This document shows positions 22,462-47,334 of a DNA stretch of 47,334 nucleotides, piece after piece. A program made the position numbers and the translations under genes. Within the stretch, counting starts at the first letter, position 1; every line of letters begins with the position of its first letter. Below the pieces are notes generated by a model that saw only the letters and a program-made list of their open reading frames with translations, ran no database searches and was not told where the DNA came from. Location: the NCBI GenBank assembly GCA_902542925.1, contig CACBWF010000004.1, positions 1 through 47,334 of the forward strand. The letters run 5' to 3'. This DNA is from an uncultured Alphaproteobacteria bacterium (lineage in GTDB: Bacteria; Pseudomonadota; Alphaproteobacteria; Methylaequorales; Methylaequoraceae).

Positions 22462-22464
22462 GTT

Positions 22465-23805: not shown

Positions 23806-23879
23806 TACACTTAATCTAATTAAAATGATATTATGTATATATATAAAAATTACTAAGGTTAAAAGGATAATTGTAAACA

Positions 23880-24931: not shown

Positions 24932-24957
24932 TTCAAAAGGTTAAATTATAAGAATTT

Positions 24958-27010: not shown

Positions 27011-27024
27011 TTTGAGGAAAACTG

Positions 27025-27324
27025 ATGAAAAAAAAATTTAAATCAATTCAAGAGGTAAGGGTTCAAATTGATAAGATTGATGAAGATATTTTAAATCTGA
27101 TTTTTAAAAGACAAGATCTTGTTATAGAGGCTGTAAAACATAAGACAAAGGAACAAATAATTGATGAAGTTAGAATAGAGTACATAATAAGTAAACTTAG
27201 GAAGAAATCTGAATTAAAGTCAATCTCACCTGAACTAATAGAAAAAATTTGGAGGTTAATGATCAATAATTTTATCGAATTTGAAAAAGAGAACTTTGAT
27301 AAGATTCACAAAAAACTTGACTAA
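27025..27324 (+). CDS. Chorismate mutase, AroQ type
   Basis: 99 residues, all-helical, free-standing. The family pattern is clear: IQEVRVQIDKIDEDILNLIFKRQDL, then a conserved Lys, DEVRIEYIISKLR, and a C-terminal SPELIEKIWRLMINNFIEFE. It converts chorismate to prephenate for Phe and Tyr synthesis. AroQ domains are also found fused to prephenate dehydratase, but here the domain stands alone with its own start preceded by a GAGGAAA sequence. It overlaps the 3' end of convergent tldD by four bases. Confidence 0.9.
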   Translation: MKKKFKSIQEVRVQIDKIDEDILNLIFKRQDLVIEAVKHKTKEQIIDEVRIEYIISKLRKKSELKSISPELIEKIWRLMINNFIEFEKENFDKIHKKLD

Positions 27325-28721: not shown

Positions 28722-28860
28722 TTTTGTATTTATAAAAATATTTATTTATAGTAAAAAAACAATTTTTTTAATAAGCTACAATTGTTTTTTTATTATTATT
28801 AATTATATTAATTATAATTTAGAATGTATTTGGTTAATTTACAATAAAGGATTTAGGAAA
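28722..28860. promoter_or_regulatory. Divergent tldD/coxB control region with an inverted repeat
   Basis: One of the longest non-coding gaps here, about 90% A+T. It contains a perfect 12-base inverted repeat: AAAAAAACAATT at 28753-28764 and AATTGTTTTTTT at 28780-28791, separated by 15 bases. The repeat reads the same from both strands, ends in T runs both ways, and could be an operator or a weak bidirectional terminator hairpin. A possible promoter for coxB is TTGTTT at 28782 with TATATT at 28804, spacing 16, overlapping the repeat; in such AT-rich DNA this is weak evidence. Confidence 0.4.
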
Positions 28861-29667: not shown

Positions 29668-29673
29668 TTTTTT

Positions 29674-29679
29674 AAGGAG
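29674..29679 (+). promoter_or_regulatory. Strong Shine-Dalgarno for coxA
   Basis: AAGGAG eight bases before the coxA ATG. Most genes in this window have weak or no recognisable ribosome binding sites, so this one stands out and fits high expression of the oxidase core subunit. Confidence 0.65.
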
Positions 29680-29687
29680 TTTATATT

Positions 29688-31250: not shown

Positions 31251-31268
31251 TGGTTTTGGTTAAGGATC

Positions 31269-32177
31269 ATGAAAGTTGATTCTTTAAATAATACCGATGA
31301 ATTCAGAAAAGAAGATAGTTCTGTAGAAGACTATATTAGTTTACTCAAACCAAGAGTAATGATCTTGGCTATCTTTAGCTCGATTTGTGGTTTGATATTA
31401 GCTCCGGGTAATATACATCCGTTTTTATCGTTTGTTGCGATTATTTGCATCTCTATGGGCGCTGGAGCGTCTGGTGCAATAAACATGTGGTACGATAAAG
31501 ATATTGATTCTTTAATGAATAGAACAAAAAATAGACCGGTACCAAGAGGAGCAATATTTTCAAATAATGCTTTGGGTTTTGGAGTTGTTTTAGGTTTGTT
31601 GTCAGTATTATTACTTGGTTTAGCAACAAATTATTTTGCTGCCTTTCTTTTAGCATCATCAATAATTTTCTACATATTAATTTACACTATATGGCTGAAA
31701 AGGAGGACACATCATAATATTGTAATTGGGGGTGCAGCAGGAGCATTCCCACCGGTAATTGGTTGGGTTTGTGTTACTGGAGAGTTAAGCCTGTATCCAA
31801 TGTTATTATTTTTAACTATTTTTTTCTGGACACCACCTCATTTTTGGGCTTTGTCTTTATACAAAGACGTAGAATATTCTAAAGCAAATATTCCAATGCT
31901 ACCTGTAGTGAAAGGTCAAAAAGAAACCAAACAACAAATTTTAATATACTCCTTGATACTTTTCTTTGTATCTTTGTTACCTTACTACTATGGTTTCGCT
32001 AAAGAACAGTTCTTAGTGTTTGGTATACTAATAAATTTAATTTTTCTTTTGTTTTCTTACAGAATATTAGTTTGTGATAACAATAATACAGAAAAAAAAG
32101 CCTCTGAGCTCTTTAAGTTTAGCATATTATATTTGTATTTTTACTTCATAATTTTAGTTGTAGAAAAACTTACTTAA
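31269..32177 (+). CDS. ctaB: Protoheme IX farnesyltransferase (heme O synthase)
   Basis: Farnesylates heme b to heme O, the precursor of heme A needed by the aa3 oxidase. 302 residues, UbiA superfamily, about nine hydrophobic helices. Prenyl-diphosphate motifs are NMWYDKDIDSLMNRTKNRP and the later YKDVEYSKANIPMLPV. The soluble N-terminal 20 residues are acidic. It is located within the oxidase cluster between coxA and ctaG. Heme A synthase (ctaA) is not in the window. Confidence 0.96.
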   Translation: MKVDSLNNTDEFRKEDSSVEDYISLLKPRVMILAIFSSICGLILAPGNIHPFLSFVAIICISMGAGASGAINMWYDKDIDSLMNRTKNRPVPRGAIFSNNALGFGVVLGLLSVLLLGLATNYFAAFLLASSIIFYILIYTIWLKRRTHHNIVIGGAAGAFPPVIGWVCVTGELSLYPMLLFLTIFFWTPPHFWALSLYKDVEYSKANIPMLPVVKGQKETKQQILIYSLILFFVSLLPYYYGFAKEQFLVFGILINLIFLLFSYRILVCDNNNTEKKASELFKFSILYLYFYFIILVVEKLT

Positions 32178-32187
32178 GGTTAAAAAA

Positions 32188-32280
32188 ATGGATAAACACA
32201 AAAAAAAAAATATCGTACTAGGACTAGCCTTGTTTTCTCTCGTAGTACTGTTTTATTTAATAACAATTATAAAGTTGTAA
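32188..32280 (+). CDS. CoxF-like 30-residue membrane peptide
   Basis: A very short gene between ctaB and ctaG. It encodes MDKHKKKNIVLGLALFSLVV followed by LFYLITIIKL: a basic N-terminus and one transmembrane helix. In other alphaproteobacteria a small single-helix protein often called CoxF or CtaF occupies this exact position, with the same VLFYLIT-like segment. AAGGT lies eight bases before the ATG, the reading frame ends with TAA, and it is 11 bases from ctaG. Its function is not well established; a role in oxidase assembly is inferred from location. At 30 residues it is at the short end. Confidence 0.75.
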   Translation: MDKHKKKNIVLGLALFSLVVLFYLITIIKL

Positions 32281-32291
32281 GTTAAAATTTT

Positions 32292-32828
32292 ATGCTTAAA
32301 AAAAAGAATTTAAAAATACAAGTCATATATCTAGTATCCTTTGTATTATTTATGATAGGACTAAGCTATGCATCAGTACCACTATATAAATTATTCTGTC
32401 AAGTTACCGGTTTTGCTGGTACGCCAATGATTAGTAGTAAGAATAACCCTACTATATTGGATAAAGTTATTTATGTAAGACTTGACTCGTCTGTTGAGAA
32501 ACCGTCACCATTGATTTTTGAACCAATATCAAGAAAAATAGAAACTAAAATTGGGGAAAATAAACTCGTTTTCTACAAAGCTAAAAATTTGTCAGATAAA
32601 GAAGTTATTGGTACAGCTACATTTAATGTTACACCACTTACAGTGGGTCAGTATTTCAATAAGATAGAATGTTTTTGTTTTGAGGAACAGATTTTTCAAC
32701 CTGGTCAAGAAGTAGAAATGCCAGTATCTTTTTTCATAGATCCAGAAATTGTTAGTGACAAAAATATCAAATCTATTGATGAATTGACACTTTCGTATAC
32801 TATGTATATTAAAAATAATAAGAATTAA
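32292..32828 (+). CDS. ctaG: Cytochrome c oxidase assembly protein CtaG (Cox11)
   Basis: Copper chaperone for the CuB site of subunit I. 178 residues: one N-terminal transmembrane helix (about 10-28), then a periplasmic immunoglobulin-like domain. The copper-binding pair is in the hallmark segment IECFCFEEQ, and a third conserved Cys lies in KLFCQVTGF just after the helix. The order coxA-ctaB-coxF-ctaG-coxC is the alphaproteobacterial arrangement. It ends two bases before coxC. Confidence 0.95.
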   Translation: MLKKKNLKIQVIYLVSFVLFMIGLSYASVPLYKLFCQVTGFAGTPMISSKNNPTILDKVIYVRLDSSVEKPSPLIFEPISRKIETKIGENKLVFYKAKNLSDKEVIGTATFNVTPLTVGQYFNKIECFCFEEQIFQPGQEVEMPVSFFIDPEIVSDKNIKSIDELTLSYTMYIKNNKN

Positions 32829-32830
32829 AT

Positions 32831-33652
32831 ATGAGTTCAGATAATAAACATCCTTATCACTTAGTTGACCCTAGTCCATGGCCTTTAGTTACATCAATGG
32901 CATGTTTGCTAATGGCATGGGGGGCAATAATGGCAATGAATGAAGAGGGTTCATTGTTATTCTTTATAGGCGCTGGTGCAGTTACACTAGCAAGTATTCT
33001 TTGGTGGAGGGACGTCGTAAATGAGTCTGAAAAAGGAGGTTTTCATAATCAGGTTGTTCAAATTGGTTTAAGATATGGCATGCTATTATTTATAGCTTCT
33101 GAGGTAATGTTTTTTGCAGCTTGGTTTTGGGCATTTTTTGATGTAGCATTATACCCAGGTGCAGATAGTCCGGAATTGACCGGAAGAATGGATGCCATAA
33201 ACGGTATTTTCCCTCCTGAGGATATCAAATTAATTGAGCCATTCGGTATTCCTTTATTAAATACATTGATTCTATTAGCATCTGGTGGAACTGTTACTTG
33301 GGCGCATCACGCATTAAGAAACAATGACAGAAAAAATTTTTTAATTTTTCTTTTTTTAACTATAATGCTTGGTTTTATTTTTACTGGTTTTCAGGCTTAT
33401 GAATACATGGTTGCTGATTTTAAAATTGATGAAGGTATTTATCCTTCCACTTTCTATATGGCAACAGGGTTTCATGGTGCACATGTAATAATTGGTTCTA
33501 TTTTCTTACTTGTTTGTTTTATAAGGGGGCTTTCCGGACATTTTAAACCCGAAAAACATCTCGGTTTTGAATTTGCAGCATGGTATTGGCACTTTGTTGA
33601 TGTCGTATGGTTATTTTTGTTTGCATTTGTATACTGGTGGGTGTCCGTTTAA
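32831..33652 (+). CDS. coxC: Cytochrome c oxidase subunit III
   Basis: 273 residues with seven predicted helices. It starts with the typical HPYHLVDPSPWPLVTS, has ASEVMFFAAWFWAFF containing the conserved membrane Glu, and GFHGAHVIIGS with AWYWHFVDVVWLFLF near the C-terminus. Subunit III stabilises subunit I and supports proton uptake. It follows ctaG after two bases and precedes surf1 after nine. No DUF983 gene, which I recall between coxC and surf1 in some relatives, is present. Confidence 0.97.
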   Translation: MSSDNKHPYHLVDPSPWPLVTSMACLLMAWGAIMAMNEEGSLLFFIGAGAVTLASILWWRDVVNESEKGGFHNQVVQIGLRYGMLLFIASEVMFFAAWFWAFFDVALYPGADSPELTGRMDAINGIFPPEDIKLIEPFGIPLLNTLILLASGGTVTWAHHALRNNDRKNFLIFLFLTIMLGFIFTGFQAYEYMVADFKIDEGIYPSTFYMATGFHGAHVIIGSIFLLVCFIRGLSGHFKPEKHLGFEFAAWYWHFVDVVWLFLFAFVYWWVSV

Positions 33653-33661
33653 ATTTTAATA

Positions 33662-34381
33662 ATGTATTTTAGTTTTAATAAGCATAAGTACATTTTTGAA
33701 CCTAAAGTCTTTTCAACTTTTGTTTCACTTGTTGCTCTATTAATTTTACTTTCACTTAGTTATTGGCAGATTATTAGGCTGGAGTGGAAAGAAAATTTAA
33801 TTGAACAAAGAATTAAAATGTTTGAATCGGACAGTGTTTTTTTAAAGAATGTTGAATATCCTGAAAAAAACGAATTTCTGAGAGTGAAAATTGAAGGGAA
33901 GTTTATTAATGAATTAGAAATGTTTATGCCAGCTTTAAGTAAAAATGGAAATAATGGGTATCATATTCTTCTTCCATTTGAACTCGTAAACGGTGAATAC
34001 ATCATATTTGACAGAGGTTGGATTCCACTAAAACTGAAAAATAGAGAACTAAGAAAAAAACACGAAATATATGATTCTCAAAAATTTGAAGCTGTAATAA
34101 GACTCCCTGGTAAAAAGGGGAAATTTCAACCAGATAATGACTTTGAAAATAATTTTTGGTTTTTTGTCGAACCTTTAAAAATGTCAGAATTTACCAAATT
34201 AAACTTAAAGGATACTTTTTACTTGGAGGCAACTAATGATGGCCCTAACGGTTATCCATTAGGAAACCAAACTAGGATATACATTAGAAATAACCATTTA
34301 CAATATGCCATAACATGGTTTTTAATTGCGATAGGTCTTGTTGGGGTTTATTTAGCTGCTAATATCAGAAAAATAAAGTAG
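33662..34381 (+). CDS. SURF1 family cytochrome oxidase assembly protein
   Basis: 239 residues with the SURF1 topology: a transmembrane helix near the N-terminus followed by SYWQIIRLEWKENLIEQR, a large periplasmic domain with FDRGWIP, and a second helix near the C-terminus within YAITWFLIAIGLVGVYL. The family acts in heme a insertion into subunit I. It sits between coxC and thrC with two bases to the latter, as in many alphaproteobacteria. Confidence 0.93.
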   Translation: MYFSFNKHKYIFEPKVFSTFVSLVALLILLSLSYWQIIRLEWKENLIEQRIKMFESDSVFLKNVEYPEKNEFLRVKIEGKFINELEMFMPALSKNGNNGYHILLPFELVNGEYIIFDRGWIPLKLKNRELRKKHEIYDSQKFEAVIRLPGKKGKFQPDNDFENNFWFFVEPLKMSEFTKLNLKDTFYLEATNDGPNGYPLGNQTRIYIRNNHLQYAITWFLIAIGLVGVYLAANIRKIK

Positions 34382-34383
34382 AA

Positions 34384-35772
34384 ATGAAATATTACTCAAC
34401 GCGAGGTGGAGAGTCTTCAATTAGTTTCGAGAAGGTAGTTCTTAACGGATTAGCAACTGATGGTGGATTATATATTCCTGAAATATTCCCCCATTTTAAT
34501 CATAAGGATTTTTCTGATTTTAGAGAACTTGAATATAGTGAATTAGCTTATAAAATCACAAAAGATTTTATTGGTAAATCAATTCCATTAAAAGACTATC
34601 AAAAAATTTGTCAGAATACCTATTCAAACTTTTCTTCGAAAGAAATTATTAATTTAAGTAAACTTAGAAAGAACGAGTTTATACTTAATCTTTATAATGG
34701 ACCAACTTATGCTTTTAAAGATTTTGCTCTTCAGCTACTAGGGAATATATACGAATACATTCTCAAAAAGAAAAAAAAACAACTTGTTATACTTGGTGCC
34801 ACTTCTGGTGATACGGGTTCTGCAGCCATTCATGGTTGCTCAAAATCCAAATCTATAAAAATATTCATTCTTTTTCCTTACAAAAAAGTTAGTGAAATTC
34901 AGAGGAAACAAATGACTACAATTGACAAATGTAATGTTTTTAATATTGCTGTAAAGGGTGATTTTGACGATTGTCAAGCACTTGTAAAAAAAATTTTTCA
35001 AAAAAATAGTAAAGGAAAATCTTTAAACTTAGCAGCAATTAATTCTATTAATTGGGTAAGAATTATGGGTCAAATTGTTTACTATTTTTGGGCATACCTA
35101 AAAACTTGTAAGAAAGGTGAACAAATTATTTTTAGTATACCTACTGGAAATTTTGGAAATGTTTATGCTGGCTTCGTTGCAAAATTAATGGGGCTTCCTA
35201 TTAAAAAATTAGTCGTCTCATCTAATTCTAATGATGTTTTAACTAGATTTTTTTCTTCTGGTTGTATGGAAAAAAAAAAGACAAAAATAACTTTGAGTCC
35301 AAGTATGGATATACAGGTATCAAGTAATTTTGAAAGATTGATGGATTATTATCTTGATAGAAATAGTTTAAAGCTAAGTAAATTATACCAATCACTTGAA
35401 AACGAAGGAAAATTTGTTGTAAGCAAAAAAATGTTAAAAAAAATCTCATTAAATTTTTATGGAGGTAAAATAAATGACAAGACAACACAAGATGTAATTA
35501 AAGATATTTATTTTGAAAATAAAATTATAATTGATCCGCACACGGCAGTTGGTATTAAAGTCGGAAGAACTTATAATAAAATTAATGAAAAAATAATTTT
35601 TTTGTCAACTGCTCATCACGCAAAGTTTTTAGAGACGGTAAAAAAGTCAACTAAAAAAAATCTTAAATTACCTTCTGATTTAATTAAAATTATGGCTAAA
35701 AAAGAAAAATATACAGTAATTAATAATAGTATGAAGGAACTGGAGGAATTTATTACAAAAAATTCTACTTAG
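34384..35772 (+). CDS. thrC: Threonine synthase
   Basis: PLP enzyme converting phosphohomoserine to threonine. 462 residues. The N-terminus MKYYSTRGGE and early GLATDGGLYIPE are typical of the longer bacterial class. The PLP Lys is in PTYAFKDFALQ, and GATSGDTGSAAI binds the phosphate. It directly follows surf1, and thrB (the preceding pathway step) is also in the window at 39267. A palindromic tagatatcta covers its stop codon; with four bases to the convergent algH it might act as a small hairpin, but no T run follows. Confidence 0.96.
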   Translation: MKYYSTRGGESSISFEKVVLNGLATDGGLYIPEIFPHFNHKDFSDFRELEYSELAYKITKDFIGKSIPLKDYQKICQNTYSNFSSKEIINLSKLRKNEFILNLYNGPTYAFKDFALQLLGNIYEYILKKKKKQLVILGATSGDTGSAAIHGCSKSKSIKIFILFPYKKVSEIQRKQMTTIDKCNVFNIAVKGDFDDCQALVKKIFQKNSKGKSLNLAAINSINWVRIMGQIVYYFWAYLKTCKKGEQIIFSIPTGNFGNVYAGFVAKLMGLPIKKLVVSSNSNDVLTRFFSSGCMEKKKTKITLSPSMDIQVSSNFERLMDYYLDRNSLKLSKLYQSLENEGKFVVSKKMLKKISLNFYGGKINDKTTQDVIKDIYFENKIIIDPHTAVGIKVGRTYNKINEKIIFLSTAHHAKFLETVKKSTKKNLKLPSDLIKIMAKKEKYTVINNSMKELEEFITKNST

Positions 35773-35776
35773 ATAT

Positions 35777-36340
35777 CTAGGCTTTGCCTGAGTAAGAGGA
35801 AAATTTTGAAAAGTCAATTCCAGTGATTTTTATAGCCTTATCCCACTTTTTTTCAGCTTCTACATCAAATATTAGATCAAGCTCTTCCTTAATTTTAATC
35901 CAGCTATTATTTATAATTTCTTCCTCAAGTTGACCAGGCCCCCAGCCTGCATAACCAAGAGAAATAAAATATTTTTTTGGACCTATATTTTTTGCAATAT
36001 CTTCTATTATTTTTGTAGTACAAGTAAGGTTTACTGATTGTGAAATTTTTATAGTATCTTTTTTTTTGTATTCCTTAGAGTGAAGTATAAAACCATTATT
36101 TTGACTAAGGGGCCCGCCTATGTGAAGGGAGAAGTTTTTTTTTTTATTTTTACTTACAATATTTAGTTTTTCAAAAAGATCATCTCCAGAGACATTCATG
36201 ATTTTGTAATTAAGTACTATTCCTATTGCACCTTCATCATTATGATGGGTTAAATATATTAAACTTTTTGTAAAAAAAAGATCCTTTAATTGAGGTAATG
36301 CACAAATTATATTTCCTTTAAGATAATTTTTCTTTTTCAT
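35777..36340 (-). CDS. algH: YqgE/AlgH family protein
   Basis: 187 residues of the UPF0301 family. Conserved elements are the start GNIICALPQLKD, LIYLTHHNDEGAIGIVLN, GGPLSQNNGFILH and LGYAGWGPGQLEEEI. The biochemical role is not known; an effect on alginate regulation is reported only for Pseudomonas. It is convergent with thrC and divergent from the DsbD-like gene, where the 48-base gap 36341-36388 must hold both promoters. Confidence 0.93.
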   Translation of the reverse strand: MKKKNYLKGNIICALPQLKDLFFTKSLIYLTHHNDEGAIGIVLNYKIMNVSGDDLFEKLNIVSKNKKKNFSLHIGGPLSQNNGFILHSKEYKKKDTIKISQSVNLTCTTKIIEDIAKNIGPKKYFISLGYAGWGPGQLEEEIINNSWIKIKEELDLIFDVEAEKKWDKAIKITGIDFSKFSSYSGKA

Positions 36341-36388
36341 TATATAATTATGACAATTTTAAACAAATTAATCAATTAAGCTTTTATT

Positions 36389-38362
36389 GTGAAGAAATTT
36401 TTTATACTGACCTTTTTTCTAGTTTTAATTAAGAATGTTGTTTACGCTAATTTAGATATTCTTACAACAGATAAGTATAGTAGTCTATCAACCTTAAATA
36501 ATGAAAAATTATTAAAATTTGAGAATGACTTATTTTTTGGTGTTAAAATAAATATGTTGCCTGGATGGAAGACCTATTGGAAGAATCCTGGAGACTCAGG
36601 AGAAACTATTTCGCTAAAATTTTTTGACAATAAAAATATTATAAAACACGAAATTTTGTACCCTTCACCAAATAGATATTTTGATTCAGATATTGAGACA
36701 ATAGGATATGAGAATGAAGTGATTTTTCCGATAAGGTTAAATTTAAGAGATACTAATCAAAATTTTAGAACTGAAGTAGATATAAATTATTTAGTTTGTA
36801 AGCATATTTGCATACCTGTAAATGAAAAAAAAGTAATCGACTATAACCCAAGGAATATTAGTGAGAACAAAAAAAGTATCTTAGCTGTTGCTATCAATCA
36901 AAATCCAATTAAACAAGATAGTTTTTTTGATATTCAAGAAATAGATATAGGAAAAAAAAAGATTAAAATTAAAATAAATGACTTTAATAGCAAAAACTCA
37001 GAGTTAGATATATTTACTTTTTCTGAAAATTATGAATTTGATTATAGAATTATTCCTAAAGGAAAATTTAATTCACAAATTCTCTTAGTTTCTAATAGTA
37101 AATTCGAATTGAAAGATAAATTAGAGATTCTTGTAGTCAATAAAACTAGTGGAAACTCAAATATTTTTAATATTAATATTGGGAATAAAAAAAATCATCA
37201 ATCTATAATTTTCATGTTAATGATAGCATTTATTGGTGGAGTCATTTTGAATTTTATGCCTTGTGTTCTTCCTGTTTTATCATTAAAGATTTACTCACTT
37301 ATAAATCTAAATAAAGATGATAAAAATAAAATCTTATTTTCTTCATTAGCAACAGCAGCAGGAATTCTTTTTTCATTTATTTTATTAGGTATTGTAATAA
37401 TTCTATTAAGGACGTTAGGTAATGAAGTTGGATGGGGTATACAGTTCCAGAGTTCTGAATTCTTGTTAATATTTTCGCTTATACTATTTTTTTTTTCACT
37501 CAATTTAATAGGAGTTTTTGAGATTTTTATGCCATCAATATTTAATAAATTAAATAATGTTGATTTCAAAAATAAATATATTTCTGCTTTCTTCACTGGA
37601 ATAATTTCAACTGCTCTTGCAACTCCTTGTTCTGCACCATTTTTAGGAACTGCTATAAGTTTTGCTTTCACCCAGAATGATTTGTATACAATTTTCATAT
37701 TTACTGCATTAGGTTTAGGGTTTGGTATTCCATACTTTTTAATAATGGTTGCACCAAGCACACTAAATATTTTTCCTAAACCTGGGTTATGGATGATTAA
37801 AATGAAATATATTTTGGGTATGTTAGTATTACTAACAGCACTATGGTTGTTAAGTTTAATGAAATATAACCTAACTGTATTGTATCTTATATTCATTCTT
37901 TTTGGAGGACTTGGATTTTATATTTCAAAATTACAGTTAAGTAAAAATATTTTAACTATTTTACTATTATTAATTTCTAGTTTTGTAATATTTCCAAAAA
38001 AAGATCAAAATGACGAGATGTGGTTAAAATATGAGAAGAATATTTTACAAGATATGATTGAAAAAAATAATATAGTCTTTGTTGATGTAACTGCTGATTG
38101 GTGTGTTACATGTAAGATTAATAAAATTTCAACGCTAGACAAAAAAGAAATGAAATCTTTTTTTAAAGAAAATAATGTAAAATTATTAAAAGCTGATTGG
38201 ACAAACAAAAATATAGAAATTCAAAATTATATGAAAAGTTTTGATAAGTATGGTATACCTTTGAATATAGTTTATGGACCAAAAAATAAAGATGGTATTG
38301 TTTTAGGAGAATTATTGTCAAAAAAAAAAATAATTGAAGCTATTAATGAGGTAAAACAATGA
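36389..38362 (+). CDS. DsbD/ScsB-like thiol-disulfide transporter
   Basis: 657 residues starting at GTG. Layout: signal segment (about 1-20); a periplasmic N-terminal domain with C137 and C141 in VCKHICIPV; a membrane domain of about eight helices with C292 in MPCVLPV and C414 in TPCSAPF; and a C-terminal thioredoxin-like domain with C572-VT-C575 in TADWCVTCK. These three Cys pairs allow electrons to pass from cytosolic thioredoxin to the periplasm. The large N-terminal domain looks more like ScsB than E. coli DsbD. Its last four bases overlap the peroxiredoxin start. Likely partners include periplasmic thioredoxin-like proteins and the DsbA in this window. Confidence 0.92.
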   Translation: MKKFFILTFFLVLIKNVVYANLDILTTDKYSSLSTLNNEKLLKFENDLFFGVKINMLPGWKTYWKNPGDSGETISLKFFDNKNIIKHEILYPSPNRYFDSDIETIGYENEVIFPIRLNLRDTNQNFRTEVDINYLVCKHICIPVNEKKVIDYNPRNISENKKSILAVAINQNPIKQDSFFDIQEIDIGKKKIKIKINDFNSKNSELDIFTFSENYEFDYRIIPKGKFNSQILLVSNSKFELKDKLEILVVNKTSGNSNIFNINIGNKKNHQSIIFMLMIAFIGGVILNFMPCVLPVLSLKIYSLINLNKDDKNKILFSSLATAAGILFSFILLGIVIILLRTLGNEVGWGIQFQSSEFLLIFSLILFFFSLNLIGVFEIFMPSIFNKLNNVDFKNKYISAFFTGIISTALATPCSAPFLGTAISFAFTQNDLYTIFIFTALGLGFGIPYFLIMVAPSTLNIFPKPGLWMIKMKYILGMLVLLTALWLLSLMKYNLTVLYLIFILFGGLGFYISKLQLSKNILTILLLLISSFVIFPKKDQNDEMWLKYEKNILQDMIEKNNIVFVDVTADWCVTCKINKISTLDKKEMKSFFKENNVKLLKADWTNKNIEIQNYMKSFDKYGIPLNIVYGPKNKDGIVLGELLSKKKIIEAINEVKQ

Positions 38363-38838
38363 AATATAAAGTTAATGATAAAATTGATAATGTAGATGTA
38401 TATAAAATAAATGAAAATGGCCCTGAGAAAGTTAAATTTTTAAATGTAATTGAAGATAAAACTGTATTATTAATTGGAGTTCCAGGTGCGTTTACACCAA
38501 CATGTTCTGAGGAGCATTTACCTGGATATGTTAAGTTGTCAGATGATTTTTTAAGTAAGGGTATCCAGAAAATCATATTTATATCAGTCAATGATCCTTT
38601 TGTACTTGAAAAATGGTTAGATGCTAATGATGCAAAAAATATCGATTTTTTATCAGATTATGATCATAATTTTCTTGAAAAATCAGGATTTGAAATAGAT
38701 TTATCTGTTGTTGGTTTAGGTATTAGATTATCTAGATTTGCAATGGTTATCAAAAATTCTGTTATTACGCATATATTTGATGAAAATGGAGCTGGATTAT
38801 TAAATAGTAAAGCTGAAAAAGTAATTTCAAAATTATAA
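38359..38838 (+). CDS. Peroxiredoxin, Prx5 type, single cysteine
   Basis: 159 residues with no signal peptide, so cytosolic. The peroxidatic Cys is C49 in GAFTPTCSEEHLPGY, the Prx5 family signature. I see no other Cys in the protein, so it should be a 1-Cys enzyme that needs an external thiol such as glutathione or glutaredoxin; gshA is encoded in the same window. The start overlaps the DsbD-like gene by four bases, suggesting co-expression as an oxidative stress pair. It overlaps the convergent rnhA end by six bases. Confidence 0.94.
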   Translation: MKYKVNDKIDNVDVYKINENGPEKVKFLNVIEDKTVLLIGVPGAFTPTCSEEHLPGYVKLSDDFLSKGIQKIIFISVNDPFVLEKWLDANDAKNIDFLSDYDHNFLEKSGFEIDLSVVGLGIRLSRFAMVIKNSVITHIFDENGAGLLNSKAEKVISKL

Positions 38839-39273
38839 AAGGTTTGCTTCGTTTCTTGCCATTTCGTCTACTTCTTCATTAAATTTGTCTCCGCTATGAC
38901 CTTTTATCCACGTCCAATCAACATTATGAGATTGTAGAAGATCGTCCAATTGTTTCCACAAATCAATATTTTTTACTTTTTGATTTGAACTACTTTTCCA
39001 ATTATTTAGCTTCCACTTTTCTAACCAATCTTTTGCCCCATTAATTAAATATTTACTATCTGTATGCAAAATGACTTGGTGTGCATTTGATATATTTTGA
39101 AGTGATTTTATAGCGGCTGTTAATTCCATTCTATTATTAGTTGTATTTTTTTCACCACCTGAAGAAAAAACCTTTTTATCATTTAGATAATATAGGTATG
39201 CCCATCCACCAGGGCCTGGATTCCCTAGGCAAGCACCATCTGTGTAAATATTAATGGTATTATTTTCTAACAT
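38833..39273 (-). CDS. rnhA: Ribonuclease HI
   Basis: Cleaves RNA in RNA-DNA hybrids. 146 residues with the carboxylate active site: D12 in YTDGACLGNPGPGGWA, E50 in MELTAAI, D72 in HTDSKY and D136 near FNEEVDEMA; the KGHSG loop His is also present. The start overlaps the end of thrB by seven bases. The thrB-rnhA-peroxiredoxin grouping is familiar from alphaproteobacteria, although here the peroxiredoxin is on the opposite strand. Confidence 0.97.
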   Translation of the reverse strand: MLENNTINIYTDGACLGNPGPGGWAYLYYLNDKKVFSSGGEKNTTNNRMELTAAIKSLQNISNAHQVILHTDSKYLINGAKDWLEKWKLNNWKSSSNQKVKNIDLWKQLDDLLQSHNVDWTWIKGHSGDKFNEEVDEMARNEANLL

Positions 39274-40205
39274 TTTAAATCATTACGAGTATGAAAAGAA
39301 AGAATATTTAAGAAATCTAATGGATCTTTTTTTAAAAAATTTTTTTCTTCTTTGTAAAAATCTAAAAGCCTGGTTAATAAAAATCTTATTGCTGCACCCC
39401 TTAGGGATATATTTAATTTATTTTTCTCATGCTCTGTTAGTTTTCTTTCAGATTGATAGCCATTAACTAATGAAGAAAAAAAACGATGTTGAAATTTATT
39501 TTTGTTAAAACACCAAGCATTTATTGTTATTGCTAAATCATAAATAAAAAAATCAGTACATGAAAAATAAAAATCTATAATTCCAGATATTTTATTATTT
39601 TTAAAGAGTATATTATCAGGAAATAAATCTCCATGGATAATGCCTTTAGGTAAATTTTTTAACCAATTTTCTTTAAGAAAATTTAATTCCTTAGAAATTA
39701 TTGAATCAGTATTTGGAAAAAAATTTCCTACTTTTTTTTTCAATTTTTCAAATATACTCACCCATTTATCAATGCTGAAGTCGTTATTTCTTTCTTTATG
39801 AAAATTTGTACTTAATTTATGTAATTTAGCAAGTTCTTTACCAACAGAGTAACAAATATCTTTATTCCAATTTTTAAGACACTTGCCATGTATAAAAGTA
39901 AAGATTGCTAATTTTTTTTTTTTTATGGATTGTAATCTTTTTTTTTGATTACTAAGTAGCGATCTAGGACAGTTGATTCCTTGTGACTTTATATGATCCA
40001 TAAGATCAAGATAGAAAGGCAAATCCCTATTATTTACTCTTTTTTCAAAAATTGTAAGTATATATTTCTCTTTACTAGTCTTTAAAAAATAATTTGTATT
40101 TTCGATTCCTTGAGTTATACCTTTATAATCAATCAGGTCACCAACATCATATAAACTTAAAATTCTTTTTATTTCATTTTCTTCTAGTACAGTATGAACC
40201 GCCAT
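39267..40205 (-). CDS. thrB: Homoserine kinase, APH-fold (ThrB type II)
   Basis: Phosphorylates homoserine for threonine synthesis. 312 residues of the aminoglycoside phosphotransferase-like class used by alphaproteobacteria. Features are MAVHTVLEENEIKRIL, YKGITQGIENTNYFL (ATP-binding), FIHGKCLKNW, the catalytic IIHGDLFPDNILF and a following GIIDFYFS. It lies nine bases after atpF, so it may be cotranscribed with the ATP synthase F0 genes. In many relatives ispH precedes thrB; it is not here. Confidence 0.95.
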   Translation of the reverse strand: MAVHTVLEENEIKRILSLYDVGDLIDYKGITQGIENTNYFLKTSKEKYILTIFEKRVNNRDLPFYLDLMDHIKSQGINCPRSLLSNQKKRLQSIKKKKLAIFTFIHGKCLKNWNKDICYSVGKELAKLHKLSTNFHKERNNDFSIDKWVSIFEKLKKKVGNFFPNTDSIISKELNFLKENWLKNLPKGIIHGDLFPDNILFKNNKISGIIDFYFSCTDFFIYDLAITINAWCFNKNKFQHRFFSSLVNGYQSERKLTEHEKNKLNISLRGAAIRFLLTRLLDFYKEEKNFLKKDPLDFLNILSFHTRNDLKC

Positions 40206-40214
40206 AAAAAATAA

Positions 40215-40700
40215 TCAGAAATTTATTTTTTTTAAAGAATTTAAAATAATATTATTATTATCTGAAGTGCTAATATTTTTTTCAATCCTTTTTTGAGTAA
40301 CATATATGGATGTTAAAATAATCAATTCTTTAATATCTTGTTCAGCTTTAAAAATTTCGTTGTTTATTCTCTGTTGAAAATTTTTTTCCCGCTTTTCAAG
40401 TGTAGATTTAAGTCTTTGTTTCAATTCTTTTTCATACTGAACTGTATTAGTTTTTGAATCCTCAATAATTTTATTTACTAAAATATCTGAATCCTTTTGT
40501 TTTTTTTTCATCTCTTCAAGAAGTTTAATGGATTGATCCTTCAGATCTGAAGATTCATCTATTTCTTTTGTTATTGAATTAATTTTATTTTCTAATGAAT
40601 TGTTAAAAAATTCTTTCAGAGGTTTTATGGTCAACAAAATAAAAATAATAAATGATGATGCAACCCAAAAGGTTGAATCTTCAAGTATGCTAGTTGGCAT
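40215..40700 (-). CDS. atpF: ATP synthase F0 subunit b
   Basis: 161 residues: one N-terminal transmembrane helix (about 8-28, TFWVASSFIIFILLTI) and a long charged coiled-coil forming the peripheral stalk. It pairs with the b' subunit encoded immediately upstream, as in alphaproteobacteria and photosynthetic bacteria. The start overlaps the b' gene by 11 bases. It is the last F0 gene; the F1 genes are at another locus, which is usual in alphaproteobacteria. Confidence 0.93.
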   Translation of the reverse strand: MPTSILEDSTFWVASSFIIFILLTIKPLKEFFNNSLENKINSITKEIDESSDLKDQSIKLLEEMKKKQKDSDILVNKIIEDSKTNTVQYEKELKQRLKSTLEKREKNFQQRINNEIFKAEQDIKELIILTSIYVTQKRIEKNISTSDNNNIILNSLKKINF

Positions 40701-41271
40701 GAAAATCTCCCTTTAATTTTTTAAAATTTTCTTTAGAAATCTTTTCATCTTTTTTAAGTATATTTTTGAAAATATTATCGGATAAAGCAATACAATAATC
40801 TTCAAGATTTTTTTCTACTTCATCTTTCTTATCAGCTATCTCAGCCAATATTTTTTTTTCTCTTTCTTCAAATATTTTCATCTGAGCCTTTATCTCGCCA
40901 TTAAAAAAATTCATATTTTTTTCGTATGATACCTTAAATATTTTTTCAGCCTCAATCTTAGCTCTCGAAATATTTTCTTCTATTCTACTATTTAAGTCTT
41001 CTACAACCTTATTATTTTTTTCAGCTATATTAATATTTTCATTTATAATTTTGCTTCGCTCTGCGTGAACTTTAATAATTCTTGGCATAAAAAAAGAATT
41101 AATTAGAACAAACAAAATAGTAAAAACAACTACTAACCAAAAAACTTGTGAAGAAAAAGAGCTTGGATCAAGTTGAGGCATGCCACCTTTTTCATCAGCC
41201 GCCAATAATAAAAGAGGTTTTTTATAGAAAATAAATATGAATAAAAAAAAATTGATTCTTCTTAACTTCAT
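40690..41271 (-). CDS. atpF': ATP synthase F0 subunit b'
   Basis: 193 residues with a short hydrophobic leader (residues 7-24), a linker ADEKGGMPQLDPSSF, a transmembrane helix at about 43-64 (FWLVVVFTILFVLINSFF) and a charged coiled-coil. The linker before the helix is characteristic of b' proteins. The leader may be a cleaved signal or a second membrane pass. It lies between atpE (five bases) and atpF (overlap 11). Some annotations call this gene atpG or atpX. Confidence 0.92.
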   Translation of the reverse strand: MKLRRINFFLFIFIFYKKPLLLLAADEKGGMPQLDPSSFSSQVFWLVVVFTILFVLINSFFMPRIIKVHAERSKIINENINIAEKNNKVVEDLNSRIEENISRAKIEAEKIFKVSYEKNMNFFNGEIKAQMKIFEEREKKILAEIADKKDEVEKNLEDYCIALSDNIFKNILKKDEKISKENFKKLKGDFHAN

Positions 41272-41276
41272 AAATA

Positions 41277-41504
41277 CTAAAATACAAATAATAGTAATAA
41301 AGCAATAATTAGTGCAAATAATGCTAAAGCTTCAACTAGGGCGAATCCTAACATTGTCATCGTAAATACATGTTCTCTAGCTCCAGGGTTTCTTCCTACG
41401 GCTGAAATAAAGGCTGCAAAAATATTCCCAATTCCGATACCTGAACCTATTACTCCTAGAACCGCAATACCAGCTCCTAAAAGTTTTGCTGCTTCAATAT
41501 CCAT
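41277..41504 (-). CDS. atpE: ATP synthase F0 subunit c
   Basis: 75-residue hairpin of two helices forming the rotor ring. The first helix contains the Gly-rich GAGIAVLGVIGSGIGIG, the polar loop is RNPGAREHVF, and the proton-carrying carboxylate is E58 in GFALVEALAL. The Glu and the alphaproteobacterial loop indicate a proton ring; I see no clear sodium-ring pattern. A strong Shine-Dalgarno precedes it, consistent with the high copy number needed. Confidence 0.97.
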   Translation of the reverse strand: MDIEAAKLLGAGIAVLGVIGSGIGIGNIFAAFISAVGRNPGAREHVFTMTMLGFALVEALALFALIIALLLLFVF

Positions 41505-41511
41505 TTAAAAT

Positions 41512-41517
41512 TCTCCT
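41512..41517 (-). promoter_or_regulatory. Strong Shine-Dalgarno for atpE
   Basis: AGGAGA seven bases before the atpE ATG on the minus strand. Neighbouring F0 genes lack so good a site, which fits the need for many c subunits per ring. Confidence 0.6.
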
Positions 41518-41542
41518 AATTAAAAGTTATAAAAATAATTAA

Positions 41543-42283
41543 CTAATGCAAATGTATTGCATCATTGATGTATAAACAAGTTAATATTGCAAATACATAA
41601 GCTTGCAAAAAAGCAATTACTATTTCAAGCCCTGTAAGTGCTATTAAAAAAGCTAAAGGAATAATACCTCCTATAATATATGAGTTAGCTGCAAGAACAA
41701 ATACAAACCCTCCAATTACCTTTAGAAGTGTATGTCCTGCCATCATATTTGCAAATAGTCTTACTGATAAACTTATTGGTCTTGATATGTATGATATAAT
41801 CTCAATTGGAATTAGCAAAATTAGCATAAGTTTTGGAACACCTGCAGGGGCAAAGAATCCTAGAAACTTTATCAGGCCATGTTTATAAATAGCAATAAAT
41901 GTAACGGATAAAAAAATAAAAAATGCAATTGCGAATGTTACTATAATGTGACTAGTCCACGTAAAACTGTATGGCAACATTCCGAAAAGATTACCAACTA
42001 GAATAAAGAGGAATAGCGTCATTACAAAGGGCAAATATTTGAGTCCCTCTTTTCCAATATTATCCCTGATCATTCCAGCAATAAATTCATAGCTTAGTTC
42101 AACAGCTACTTGAAATTTATTTGGTATTATATTCAAATTTCTTAAACCAAAAAAAAGAAAAAGCAAGATAATCATAGCTGTAAAAATCATTGCTAATGAA
42201 GAGTTTGTTAATGAAATATTATAATTGGATACAACTATCGGAATTATTTCTTTAATTTCGAATTGTGCTAAAGGACTTGCCAA
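41543..42283 (-). CDS. atpB: ATP synthase F0 subunit a
   Basis: Proton-channel subunit, 246 residues with about six helices. The essential Arg is R175 in SLSVRLFANMMAGHTLLK. The N-terminal MASPLAQFEIKEIIPI and the C-terminal LTGLEIVIAFLQAYVFAILTCLYINDAIHLH match the family. It starts three bases after atpI and is separated from atpE by 38 bases. Confidence 0.97.
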   Translation of the reverse strand: MASPLAQFEIKEIIPIVVSNYNISLTNSSLAMIFTAMIILLFLFFGLRNLNIIPNKFQVAVELSYEFIAGMIRDNIGKEGLKYLPFVMTLFLFILVGNLFGMLPYSFTWTSHIIVTFAIAFFIFLSVTFIAIYKHGLIKFLGFFAPAGVPKLMLILLIPIEIISYISRPISLSVRLFANMMAGHTLLKVIGGFVFVLAANSYIIGGIIPLAFLIALTGLEIVIAFLQAYVFAILTCLYINDAIHLH

Positions 42284-42286
42284 GAT

Positions 42287-42580
42287 TCACCTATTATTTA
42301 AACTTAAAACAGTACGATATATATTTAGAAAAGCTCCTGCAATACCTAAAAACAAAAAAATTAAAAAAAAGATAGGCTCAGTTTCAAACATTTTATCTAT
42401 TCCTAGGCCAATCAAACAACCCACAATAATAGTTACAACAAAATCTGTTGCCAGTTTTAATCCAAGACCCAGTGCACTGATATTCTGTTTAGAGGTTTTT
42501 TCACTTTTTAAATTTTTACTCTTTTTATTTTTTATACGAGAAGCAAGTCTTTGTTGAAATGATTTTTTTTCATCATTCAT
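42287..42580 (-). CDS. atpI: ATP synthase accessory protein AtpI
   Basis: 97 residues from the ATG at 42580 (MNDEKKSFQQRL), which follows the smc stop TAA after one base; a longer frame from 42616 overlaps smc and is less likely. A basic N-terminal half precedes two helices (residues ~38-58 and ~67-86) typical of the AtpI/Mg-transport-associated family, thought to assist c-ring assembly. It is the first gene of the F0 operon, and the tight spacing to smc suggests read-through from smc. Confidence 0.88.
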   Translation of the reverse strand: MNDEKKSFQQRLASRIKNKKSKNLKSEKTSKQNISALGLGLKLATDFVVTIIVGCLIGLGIDKMFETEPIFFLIFLFLGIAGAFLNIYRTVLSLNNR

Positions 42581-42581
42581 T

Positions 42582-44492
42582 TTAAATTGCTTCTTGATAA
42601 TCTCTAGTATTATCAAAACTCACAGAAACCACGTCTGATATCCCTTTTTGATTCATAGTTACTCCATAAATCTTATCTACCATTGACATTGTAATTTTAT
42701 GGTGAGTTACGATTAGAAATTTTGTTTTAGTTTGATTTTTGATTTCATTCAGAATTTCACAGAATTTTCCAACATTTTCATCATCTAAAGCCGCGTCTAC
42801 TTCATCAAGAATGCATATTGGTGATGGTTTAATAAGAAATATTGAAAAAATTAGAGAAATTGCAGTAAGTGTTTTCTCACCCCCAGACAACAAACTTATA
42901 CTTGAAAGTTTTTTTCCTGGAGGTTTAGCATATATTTCGATTCCAGTTTGTAATGGATCATCAGAATTTACTAATTCAAGATGTGCACTTCCTCCACTAA
43001 AGAATTTTTTGAATAAATTAGAAAAATTTTCATTTACTTTATCAAATGCTTTTAATAATCTTTTTTTTCCCTCTTGATTTATTTCAGTGATAGCCTTTCT
43101 AAGTTTTTTTATTGCAAGCAATATATCATCTCTTTCAGATATTATGTCTTCTAATTCTTTAATTACCTCTTTTTGTTCGATATAAGCTCTTAAATTTACT
43201 GGTCCTATTTGGTTTCTTTTATTTATTAAATCCTCAATAACTCTTTCTACCTCCATAAAATCTCTTGTTTCAGAACCATTTTTATTATCACCATCAAACT
43301 CTTTTTCCATTTGAGTAGGGTGTATTCTAAAATTTTTTTTAATATTTTCCTCAATTTCTTTAAGTTTATCTTTGTGAAAACGAGTATTTTCTTCAAGTCT
43401 AATTTTCTGATTATTAATTTGATTCTTTTCGTTATTAAGCCTTCGAATTTTTTCATTATTTTGATTTTGTTTATTATTATTAAGTTCAATATAATTATTA
43501 TTTTCATCAATTTTATTTTGTAACATTTTAATTTCAGCAATAATAGAGTTAATTTTTTGATCAAAGTTGTCAGGTTGAACATCTAGGTTTTGTTTTTCTT
43601 GCCGAAGTTTTGCAATTCTTTTTTCGTAGTTATCTAACTGACTTATTGATTCCTTTTCTCTACTTAGATTTTCTTCTAAACTTTTTGCATTATGGTTTGA
43701 TTGTATCTCCATGCTCAAAACTTTTTGGTTTATTTGGTTAATATATATCCTTTTTTTCTTTATCTGATCTTTAAGATTATCAAGTGTTAATTGTGTCTGA
43801 TTTTTTTCATTCGGTTTTGATTTACCTAATTTTAGTTTATTTTCAATATCAGATATTTCCTCGGTAACTTTTTTCTTATGATCAAAAAGTAAGTTCTGTC
43901 TTTCAATTAATTTGTCTATATATGCTTGTTCGATCAATACTTTGTTTTTTTGTTGAGCTAGTTTGATATTTTCTTTATTTAAATTATTTTGTAAATTTTG
44001 CTGATCTTTATATTTTAATAAATCAATATTTATTAATTCATTTTTTTGTTTTTTAATTTTATCGAGACTCTCCTCACATTCTGACATTTTACTATTAAGT
44101 GTTAAAATATTCTTTTCTAATTCACGTATTTTTTGGGCTTGACTGAACCACTTACTAATCTCAGTTTCTTTTTCTGAAAACAAACCGTCCCATCGCCAGA
44201 CACATCCTTCAGTAGAAACTATGTATTGTCCTACATTCAAATCCCTACTTATATTAAACCCATCAATCTTTTTTTTAACGACACCGATTTGAGATAAGAT
44301 TTGATCCAACTGTTTTGGTCCACTTACATAATTTGATAATTGATCAACTGATTTTGGTAGATCTGGTAATTTACGATTATATTTTTCAACCCAGTATTTT
44401 TTTGATTCTAAAAGTTCTGCATCCAAGTCATAATTTAATACAGTATAAACAGCTTTTTCATAACCATTTTTAATTTTTATCAAATTAATCAT
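42582..44492 (-). CDS. smc: Chromosome segregation ATPase Smc, C-terminal half only
   Basis: Holds the hinge (from INLIKIKNGYEKAVYTVLNYDLDA to about residue 105), the long returning coiled-coil (about 110-480) and the C-terminal ATPase head with the signature LLSGGEKTL near 535 and Walker B PICILDEVDAALD near 560. The first ATG, at 44492, falls at the hinge, and the frame stays open upstream to 44642 with coiled-coil-like sequence (FEKKSKEFDITFNNLTKNN). The gene is therefore cut rather than naturally short. No Walker A is on this side; it is found on the opposite strand at 46319. The 3' end leads directly into atpI, the normal context. It looks intact apart from the break. Confidence 0.93.
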   Translation of the reverse strand: MINLIKIKNGYEKAVYTVLNYDLDAELLESKKYWVEKYNRKLPDLPKSVDQLSNYVSGPKQLDQILSQIGVVKKKIDGFNISRDLNVGQYIVSTEGCVWRWDGLFSEKETEISKWFSQAQKIRELEKNILTLNSKMSECEESLDKIKKQKNELINIDLLKYKDQQNLQNNLNKENIKLAQQKNKVLIEQAYIDKLIERQNLLFDHKKKVTEEISDIENKLKLGKSKPNEKNQTQLTLDNLKDQIKKKRIYINQINQKVLSMEIQSNHNAKSLEENLSREKESISQLDNYEKRIAKLRQEKQNLDVQPDNFDQKINSIIAEIKMLQNKIDENNNYIELNNNKQNQNNEKIRRLNNEKNQINNQKIRLEENTRFHKDKLKEIEENIKKNFRIHPTQMEKEFDGDNKNGSETRDFMEVERVIEDLINKRNQIGPVNLRAYIEQKEVIKELEDIISERDDILLAIKKLRKAITEINQEGKKRLLKAFDKVNENFSNLFKKFFSGGSAHLELVNSDDPLQTGIEIYAKPPGKKLSSISLLSGGEKTLTAISLIFSIFLIKPSPICILDEVDAALDDENVGKFCEILNEIKNQTKTKFLIVTHHKITMSMVDKIYGVTMNQKGISDVVSVSFDNTRDYQEAI

Positions 44493-44604
44493 TGATTTTT
44501 TTGAATTATCTATATCCTTTGTAAATTTCCTTAGAGTATTAAGTTCAGCATTGTTTTTTGTTAAATTATTAAAAGTTATGTCAAATTCTTTTGATTTTTT
44601 TTCA

Positions 44605-44645
44605 AAGTCTTTTTCAATGATTTTTATAAGACAAATAAAATGCTA
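44605..44645. other. Rearrangement or chimera junction between mutY and smc
   Basis: On the minus strand the mutY frame reads KSKFGVAFYLSYKNH then stops at 44614. In the overlapping frame, smc coiled-coil sequence begins at about 44640 and continues into the hinge. The mutY part matches the beginning of the C-terminal domain of MutY, and the smc part lacks its N-terminal half. The exact breakpoint, probably between 44612 and 44630, cannot be fixed without an unrearranged copy. Confidence 0.75.
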
Positions 44646-45363
44646 CTCCAAATTTACTTTTCTTATTGTTTTTAAACATTTTCTTTATCCTTTTTTCAGG
44701 ATAGATATAGTAGTGACATTGACTGTTTACAGGGCATTTTTTACATAAGGGATTTTTAGGTCTACAAATTAGAGAACCTAAATCCATCAATGCCTGACAA
44801 TACGAGCCATTATTTTTTTTTGGAGTAAGATTTTGAGCCACAGTATTTAACTTTTTTTCAAAAGTTTTATTTGCAGGATTTAATCTCATAACTCTTGATA
44901 GAATTCTCTTTATATTTCCATCTACAACTGCTTTGGTGTTATCATACAAAATTGCAGAAATTGATGCAGCTGTATAAGTACCAATTCCTGGTATTTTCAT
45001 TAATTCTTCATAGCTTTTAATAGGATAATTTTGTTTAATTATATCAATTGCCTTAAACATGTTTTTTGCTCTTTGATAGTACCCTAATCCCTGCCAGTTG
45101 AACATTATTTCATCTAGAGATGCTTTAGAGAAGGAGTTGAGTGTAGGCCATTTTCTTAAAAATTTATAGAAATAAGGTATGGCCGTCTTAACACCGGTTT
45201 GCTGTAGCATGATTTCACTTAGCCATACACAATAAAAATTTTGGTACTTTTCTTTTCTCCATGGAAGTTGTCTTTTATTAATTTGGTACCACCTTAAAAT
45301 TTTATTTTGCCATTCAAGGCTATTTTTCAAACTTATATTGTCTATCTTATAATTTTTTAGCAT
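44614..45363 (-). CDS. mutY: A/G-specific adenine glycosylase, C-terminally truncated
   Basis: Removes A mispaired with 8-oxoG. 249 residues against about 350 for the family. The catalytic domain is complete: E50 in WLSEIMLQQTGVKT, helix-hairpin-helix IPGIGTYTAASISAIL, D148 in VVDGNIKRILSR, and the 4Fe-4S ligands C200, C207, C210 and C216 (C-x6-C-x2-C-x5-C). The protein stops at the first strand of the Nudix-like domain that recognises 8-oxoG. The truncation coincides with the smc junction, so it is probably not a natural short MutY. The start is only nine bases from the divergent DUF721 start. Confidence 0.93.
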   Translation of the reverse strand: MLKNYKIDNISLKNSLEWQNKILRWYQINKRQLPWRKEKYQNFYCVWLSEIMLQQTGVKTAIPYFYKFLRKWPTLNSFSKASLDEIMFNWQGLGYYQRAKNMFKAIDIIKQNYPIKSYEELMKIPGIGTYTAASISAILYDNTKAVVDGNIKRILSRVMRLNPANKTFEKKLNTVAQNLTPKKNNGSYCQALMDLGSLICRPKNPLCKKCPVNSQCHYYIYPEKRIKKMFKNNKKSKFGVAFYLSYKNH

Positions 45364-45372
45364 AATACTTAG

Positions 45373-45693
45373 ATGATAAAACGAACCAATAAAACAAAAT
45401 CTATTTCTTCAATTATACCCAATGTTCTAAATCCTGTTAAAAAAAAAAGTAATAAAATTATGGAGATTAAACTTAATTGGAATAAGATATTGAACGATAA
45501 TCTTTCAAAATTTAGCTTTCCAAATAAGATATATAAATTTAATAATAAAAAAACTCTTGAAATTTCCGTACAAGAAGAAAAACTCATTGAGATAACTTAT
45601 AATTCCGATTTTATAAAGAGAGAAATTAATAGATTTTATGGACACGAACATATAGAATTAATTAAGTTTAAAAAAAAATCTATTAAATATTGA
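45373..45693 (+). CDS. DUF721 (DciA-like) protein
   Basis: 106 residues, matching the DUF721 domain: an N-terminal helix (SISSIIPNVLNPVKKK), the LNWNKILNDNLSKFSFPNKI segment and a strand pair ending in LEISVQEEKLIEITYNSDFI. DUF721 includes DciA, the replicative helicase loader in bacteria lacking DnaC-type loaders, but the alphaproteobacterial homologues are usually longer, so helicase loading is inferred. It is divergent from mutY and overlaps the region before dsbA; the mutY-DUF721-dsbA-smc order is conserved in alphaproteobacteria. Confidence 0.82.
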   Translation: MIKRTNKTKSISSIIPNVLNPVKKKSNKIMEIKLNWNKILNDNLSKFSFPNKIYKFNNKKTLEISVQEEKLIEITYNSDFIKREINRFYGHEHIELIKFKKKSIKY

Positions 45694-45704
45694 GTAAGGT
45701 TAAT

Positions 45705-46310
45705 ATGAATTTAAAGTACATTTCTCTATTTATTTTTGTTTACAACTTTTTTTTTGCAGAACCAGTTTCAGCAAATATTGTCGATACAATTGAGGCTTTA
45801 GAGGAAAAATCTTTAGGCAAGCCAGATGCTCCAATAAAAATGATTGAGTTTGCGTCACTCACCTGTGGGCATTGCGCAAGGTTCCACAACGAAGTTATGC
45901 CTACAATTAAAGAAAAATATATAAACAATGGCAAAATATTTTTTACCTACAAAGATTTTCCATTAGACAAATTTGCTTTAAAGGCTTCTATTATATCGAG
46001 ATGCTCTGGTAATAAAAATTATTTCAGTTTTTTAGATGTTTTTTATAAAAAGCAGTCAAGTTGGACCAGGTCTCAAGATCCGTTCAAATCTTTACTCAAA
46101 ATTGCCAAAATAGGTGGGTTAAAAGATGAAGAAATTAAAGTGTGTGTTGGAAATAAATCCATCGAAGATGGGTTACTTAAGGATAGACTTCAATCCTCAA
46201 AAAAATACGATATAACCGCAACACCAACAATTTATCTTAATGGTAAAAAATATACTGGAGACTTAACCCTTGAAGCACTTGAACTTAAGATTAATTCTCT
46301 ACTTAATTAG
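45705..46310 (+). CDS. DsbA family periplasmic thiol-disulfide oxidoreductase
   Basis: 201 residues from the ATG at 45705 (AAGG seven bases upstream); a TTG at 45690 is possible. A signal peptide ends near VSA (residue 23). The thioredoxin-fold active site is C54-GH-C57 in SLTCGHCARF, and the cis-proline is in TATPTIYLNG. Two further Cys, in ISRCSGNK and IKVCVGNK, lie in the helical insertion and could form a second disulfide, as reported for Wolbachia alpha-DsbA1. It lies between DUF721 and the smc N-terminal half, eight bases before the latter. Confidence 0.92.
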   Translation: MNLKYISLFIFVYNFFFAEPVSANIVDTIEALEEKSLGKPDAPIKMIEFASLTCGHCARFHNEVMPTIKEKYINNGKIFFTYKDFPLDKFALKASIISRCSGNKNYFSFLDVFYKKQSSWTRSQDPFKSLLKIAKIGGLKDEEIKVCVGNKSIEDGLLKDRLQSSKKYDITATPTIYLNGKKYTGDLTLEALELKINSLLN

Positions 46311-46318
46311 TTACTAAA

Positions 46319-47334
46319 TTGTTTAACATAAGAAAATTAAAAATTTCAGGCTTCAAATCTTTTCCGTACCCATTAGAAATTGAAATTCCTGAAGGGATTA
46401 CAGGTATTATTGGTCCAAACGGTTGTGGTAAATCAAATATTTTTGAAGCAATTCGATGGGTAATGGGCGAAAGTTCATCAAAAAGTTTAAGGTCCTCCTC
46501 TATGGAAGAATTAATATTTAGCGGAACAGATAAGGTTCCTGAAAAAAATGTTGCTGAAGTTACAGTTGATCTTGAAATTAATGAAGAAAATAGAAAACAA
46601 TTTGGTGATGACAAACTAATTATATCAAGACACCTTGAAAGGGGTGTCGGTTCATTTTACAAAATTAATAATAAGGATGTGAGAGCAAAAGATATTAGTA
46701 TACTTTTCTCAGATTCGGGGTCGGGTCCAAGATCAAGTTCTATAATAAGTCAGGGAAATATTGACCAAATAATTAATTTTAAACCTCTAGAAAGAAAAAT
46801 AATTCTTGAAGATGCTGCTGGTATATCTGGTTTACAAACTAGAAGGCATGACTCAGAATTAAAACTAAATGCAACAGAAAAAAATTTAGAAAGAATCGCC
46901 GATAATATATCAATATTGGAAAAACAAAAACAATCACTTAAAAGACAATCACGGCAAGCTGAGAATTATCAAAAAATCTCAGATCAAATAAAACATAACC
47001 AAAAAAAATTATTCTATTTTCAATGGAAAAACTCAAATAGACAAATATCTTCGTTCCTACAAAATACCAATCTTATTGAAGGTAAAATAAAGAATATTGA
47101 ACAAGAATTAAAAAAAATAAGCGCAGTATCTGATGACATTAAGGTTAATTTAGGAAAATGTGAATTAGAAAAATTAGCTTTAGATAAAAAAATGAATAAA
47201 ATGATTCTTGAAAAAGAAACAGTAGTTAATAAAAAACAAAACTTGGTATTAAGAAGAACAGAGGTGCAAAATTTTTTACTTTCACTTGAAAATGATCAAG
47301 CCCGAGTACATAAACAAATTCAGGACATAAAGAA
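46319..47334 (+). CDS. smc: Chromosome segregation ATPase Smc, N-terminal half, runs off the window
   Basis: Starts at TTG 46319 and stays open to the window end (338 codons). It begins FNIRKLKISGFKSFPYPLEI, the usual Smc N-terminus, with Walker A GPNGCGKSN at residues 32-40 and IRWVMGESSSKSLR after it. The Q-loop region IISQGNIDQIINFKP and the DAAGISGLQTRR element follow, then coiled-coil. No Walker B or signature motif is on this side; these are in the C-terminal half on the other strand. In normal genomes the same frame would continue through the hinge into that half and then atpI. Confidence 0.93.
   Translation, partial: MFNIRKLKISGFKSFPYPLEIEIPEGITGIIGPNGCGKSNIFEAIRWVMGESSSKSLRSSSMEELIFSGTDKVPEKNVAEVTVDLEINEENRKQFGDDKLIISRHLERGVGSFYKINNKDVRAKDISILFSDSGSGPRSSSIISQGNIDQIINFKPLERKIILEDAAGISGLQTRRHDSELKLNATEKNLERIADNISILEKQKQSLKRQSRQAENYQKISDQIKHNQKKLFYFQWKNSNRQISSFLQNTNLIEGKIKNIEQELKKISAVSDDIKVNLGKCELEKLALDKKMNKMILEKETVVNKKQNLVLRRTEVQNFLLSLENDQARVHKQIQDIK

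Follow-up and report, generated by a model that had tools for sequence, protein, structure and literature searches.

A split smc gene in an alphaproteobacterial draft genome is most probably an inverted fold-back chimera of multiple displacement amplification

The smc and mutY genes at the right end of the contig studied here are broken at a common junction. Sequence comparison indicates that this is very probably (we estimate about 95%) an inverted fold-back chimera which arose during multiple displacement amplification and then entered the assembly, rather than a real inversion. The artefact is favoured over an inversion because the locus is conserved among relatives, the broken genes show no decay, each part of smc has a single match in the genome and the same kind of artefact recurs in the assembly. 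The window, i.e. the whole stretch of DNA analysed, comprises 47,334 nt and is the complete contig C4 of the draft genome G000 (871,758 bases, 49 contigs, 54% complete).

The features are summarised in Table 1. Genes at the right end follow each other in the order atpB, atpI (-), smc C-terminal part (-), mutY 5' part (-), DUF721/DciA-like (+), DsbA-like (+) and smc N-terminal part (+). The first-pass annotation had placed the two halves of smc on opposite strands, the N-terminal part on the + strand from 46319 and the C-terminal part on the - strand down to 42582, where its reading frame ends. Both placements hold. For the start of the C-terminal part it had given ~44640, but similarity to Smc begins only at 44624-44626 and the frame is merely open up to ~44642. 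It had also stated that a true inversion would remove the 8-oxoG-recognition domain of MutY. NUDIX_4, located at residues 239-354 in the intact MutY of a relative (L111), was not found by Pfam in the window's MutY piece, in which HhH-GPD is retained. For the DsbA-like gene, the corresponding gene of the same-genus genome G001 suggests the ATG at 45705 as the start.

Table 1. Features at the right end of the window and blocks colinear with the same-genus contig G001:C11. Walker A, hinge, signature and Walker B are our assignments.
Feature	Position	Strand	Remarks
Block colinear with G001:C11 46589-3039	1068..44626	-	one alignment, 92.6% identity
smc C-terminal part, residues 465-1144 (G001 numbering)	42585..44624	-	coiled coil, presumed hinge, signature and Walker B; Pfam SMC_N
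mutY 5' part	44614..45363	-	HhH-GPD domain present, NUDIX_4 absent
Inverted join, Smc residue 465 / mutY	44620..44626		end of MutY similarity overlaps start of Smc similarity
Block colinear with G001:C11 2-2664	44672..47334	+	90.3% identity; orientation opposite to remaining window
DUF721/DciA-like gene	45373..45693	+	106 aa; Pfam DciA 21.8 bits, under cut-off of 24
DsbA-like thioredoxin gene	45690..46310	+	Thioredoxin_4 (Pfam)
smc N-terminal part, residues 1-338	46319..47334	+	presumed Walker A; truncated by contig end at 47334

The contig G001:C11, taken as CABZJY010000011.1 (isolate AG-896-A16), served as reference. We take names of this type to denote single amplified cells. It carries the same genes as the window at 90-93% DNA identity across ~46 kb. 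Unlike the window, it has an intact smc (1144 aa) and the canonical gene order, and it stops within mutY, short of the 3' end of that gene. In the DNA alignment the window matches this contig reversed up to the junction and forward beyond it (Table 1). Because two alignments of 43.6 kb (92.6%) and 2.7 kb (90.3%) define the break, it is not a chance result. Judged by these alignments, the entire departure from the reference comes down to a single inverted join at ~44620-44626, whose two points lie ~3.1 kb apart as measured on G001:C11, i.e. less than ~10 kb.

The initial reading had mutY ending exactly where the C-terminal Smc sequence begins. The two do share a junction, but the final residues and the stop codon (44614-44616) of the window's mutY derive from smc sequence. 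Similarity to MutY runs to ~44620 and thus overlaps the start of the Smc similarity by ~5-6 AT-rich bases, read by eye. These shared bases can be deduced from similarity only, because searches of G000 and G001 did not recover the 3' end of mutY. It had further been stated that inverting one segment restores the usual order mutY(-) DUF721(+) dsbA(+) smc(+) atpI(+). This holds for the order itself, but smc in addition misses residues 339-464 (374 bp, C11 2665-3038). A search of the whole assembly for this missing stretch returned just its two flanks on C4 and a 31-base match in C5.

Considered by itself, the window would also be compatible with a real and very recent chromosomal inversion of ~3.1 kb, with breakpoints in mutY and smc, in a living alphaproteobacterium with a small genome. 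Smc would then be inactivated and MutY shortened, and the sequence up to 47334 would be identical. We regard this as very unlikely. As the first-pass annotation had suggested, gene order was compared among relatives. A mutY gene (-) divergent from DUF721, dsbA and smc (+) is present in 11 of the 12 stretches compared, the twelfth (L121) ending at mutY. None of the 11 informative stretches carries the inversion. Nine of them contain an intact smc, and the other two (L115, L119) leave their contigs within the gene. The middle of Smc was moreover searched in 32 genomes of the family, of which 24 gave a match and eight did not. In 19 of the matching genomes the Smc frame measures 1141-1150 aa, and in four (G004, G005, G013, G047) smc is cut at contig ends. 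The genome of the window is the only one of the 24 with smc broken inside a contig. The literature search returned no paper on an smc split by inversion in alphaproteobacteria. As a side observation, contig C24 of G012 (L047 / L067) encodes a divergent second SMC-like protein, whose identity to the two Smc parts of the window is 30-34%.

An inversion would have broken smc and mutY at once, yet neither half of smc is decayed, as had been claimed from the sequence. The dN/dS values against G001 are 0.126 for the N-terminal part, 0.137 for the C-terminal part, 0.135 for the mutY part, 0.063 for dsbA and 0.066 for atpB. The 680 codons of the C-terminal part contain no stop. Had the break been old, a relaxation of dN/dS would be expected. 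Nor was a second smc found in the 54% complete assembly, in which the N-terminal and the C-terminal part of Smc have one match apiece.

A fold-back and a real inversion would begin to differ only 374 bp beyond the end of the contig. Past 47334 a fold-back would re-enter smc and atp sequence, whereas a real inversion would enter the mutY 3' end. In favour of an inversion, its second junction may just be unassembled. The mutY 3' half was not found in G000 or G001, where the full-length MutY of a relative matched the 5' part only; a poorly conserved C-terminal domain could escape such a search. The best matches to the response regulator adjoining mutY in relatives are 35% identical and were taken as paralogs. 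The C-terminal part of the histidine kinase, which lies beyond mutY in relatives, matched both ends of contig C21, itself a fold-back.

At least three more inverted joins are present in the same assembly and require an artefact process in any case, which argues further against the inversion and agrees with the fold-back artefact assumed at first sight. In C21 (L126, 1-17875), bases 1-5737 recur inverted as 17875-12141 at 99.9% identity, which gives arms of ~5.74 kb at both ends. At its turn (near 5714-5740) a TPR-protein gene is fused to other sequence in an open frame of 726 aa, whereas the other arm has the unfused gene. This contig carries the block that lies beyond the end of mutY in relatives. 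In C26 (L138, 1-10765), the two contig ends form inverted arms of 2845 bp with 100% identity, the stretch being single copy in G001. It is colinear with G001 over 1-7928 and then turns back. In C34 (L146, 1-4458), the segment G001:C1 11426-10795 is joined inverted to 15216-19045 near 626-632, the two points lying ~4.4 kb apart. By self-comparison, the window has no duplicated inverted arm of its own, which speaks against a fold-back.

Altogether 36 of the 49 contigs were compared (31 whole, five over 88-98% of their length), covering 356,858 of 871,758 bases. Inverted joins were found in four of them (C4, C21, C26 and C34), C26 being compared by a separate search. Four is a lower bound because just 10 of the 36 contigs matched the sampled stretches of G001. 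The fold-back rate in this assembly is hence 1.1 per 100 kb or higher. Among 20 sampled G001 stretches no self-inverted arm was seen, which is a weak control given that 13 of them cover just the initial 20 kb of a longer contig.

The joins also bear on a further explanation, that the assembler alone erred by following a wrong path through the graph and no chimeric molecule existed. We consider this still less probable than the inversion. The contig does end near the join, and the surrounding mutY 3' end and smc stretch were not found in the assembly, as one might expect of such an error. However, between the two sites there is no inverted repeat long enough to mislead an assembler. Within 42000-47334 the top inverted match covers 52 columns at 77%, and there is no strong one in the window as a whole. 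For the same reason an inverted repeat at the breakpoints was dismissed as the cause. The other joins share just ~4-7 bases, which a physical molecule explains better. Read against a relative at ~90% identity, these are seven bases in C34 (both G001 parents), ~6 in C21 (own intact arm against G001) and, in C26, an overlap of seven bases between the alignments, of which the two G001 parents have only four strictly in common. Among random inverted joins drawn from G001, at least four shared bases occur in 3.0%, at least six in 0.4% and at least seven in 0.13%. Whether the C26 join is counted with four or seven does not affect the odds of the artefact as the arms themselves carry the case.

An inverted chimera of multiple displacement amplification could have formed as follows. 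The source DNA would most probably be that of one cell. A growing strand that came from the atp operon and ran back into smc would halt in the coiled-coil region, at the position of Smc residue 465. The 3' end released there may then pair, over a small number of AT-rich bases, with a displaced strand ~3.1 kb off, inside mutY, and copying would resume in the opposite direction, taking in mutY, DUF721, dsbA and the beginning of smc. The cell's own order would most likely be mutY(-) DUF721(+) dsbA(+) smc(+) atpI(+) with both smc and mutY intact.

Such chimeras have been described before. Lasken and Stockwell 2007 (PMC1855051) report a set of 475 chimeras from a single cell after amplification, 85% of them inversions; 83% of the inversion chimeras have their segments less than 10 kb apart, and most chimera joins show a complementarity of 2-21 nt. 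The window resembles them in joining segments of opposite orientation less than 10 kb apart, probably via few complementary bases, and the assembly resembles them in that the inverted joins recur in one presumably amplified genome. In contrast, the chimeras described there are single reads, whereas that of the window became an assembled contig with its shared bases deduced from similarity. For marine single-cell genomes, PMC11247762 quotes a mean of 1.5 misassemblies in every 100 kb under one production workflow, which may not be the one used for G000.

The least probable explanation, raised already in the first-pass annotation, is that the smc parts are fragments of a duplicate next to an intact copy elsewhere; it gains nothing beyond the incompleteness of the assembly and is disfavoured by the single match of either part, while, in relatives, any additional match traces to another piece of a single smc, to a weak similarity in the ATPase domain or to the divergent SMC-like protein of G012:C24. 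A split Smc working as two polypeptides was rejected as well: residues 339-464 are missing, the C-terminal part begins in the middle of the coiled coil, and none of the relatives with a match has its smc split inside a contig.

Caution is advisable with this genome. The broken smc, the truncated repair gene and the duplicated blocks (C21, C26) are most likely amplification products, and it would be a mistake to report from this draft a "split smc", a MutY lacking the NUDIX domain or an "inverted duplication". As a quick filter, contigs may be flagged if their two ends are near-identical inverted arms or if they show single inverted joins against a relative.

A minor observation, counted against the fold-back, concerns the reference itself. 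G001:C11 starts ~45 bp from the join of the window (window 44671 / L108 1), and neither of the two genomes yielded the 3' half of mutY. By a rough hand count with rounded contig numbers, a contig end this near to the join would occur by chance in ~0.4%. Perhaps this stretch amplifies poorly.
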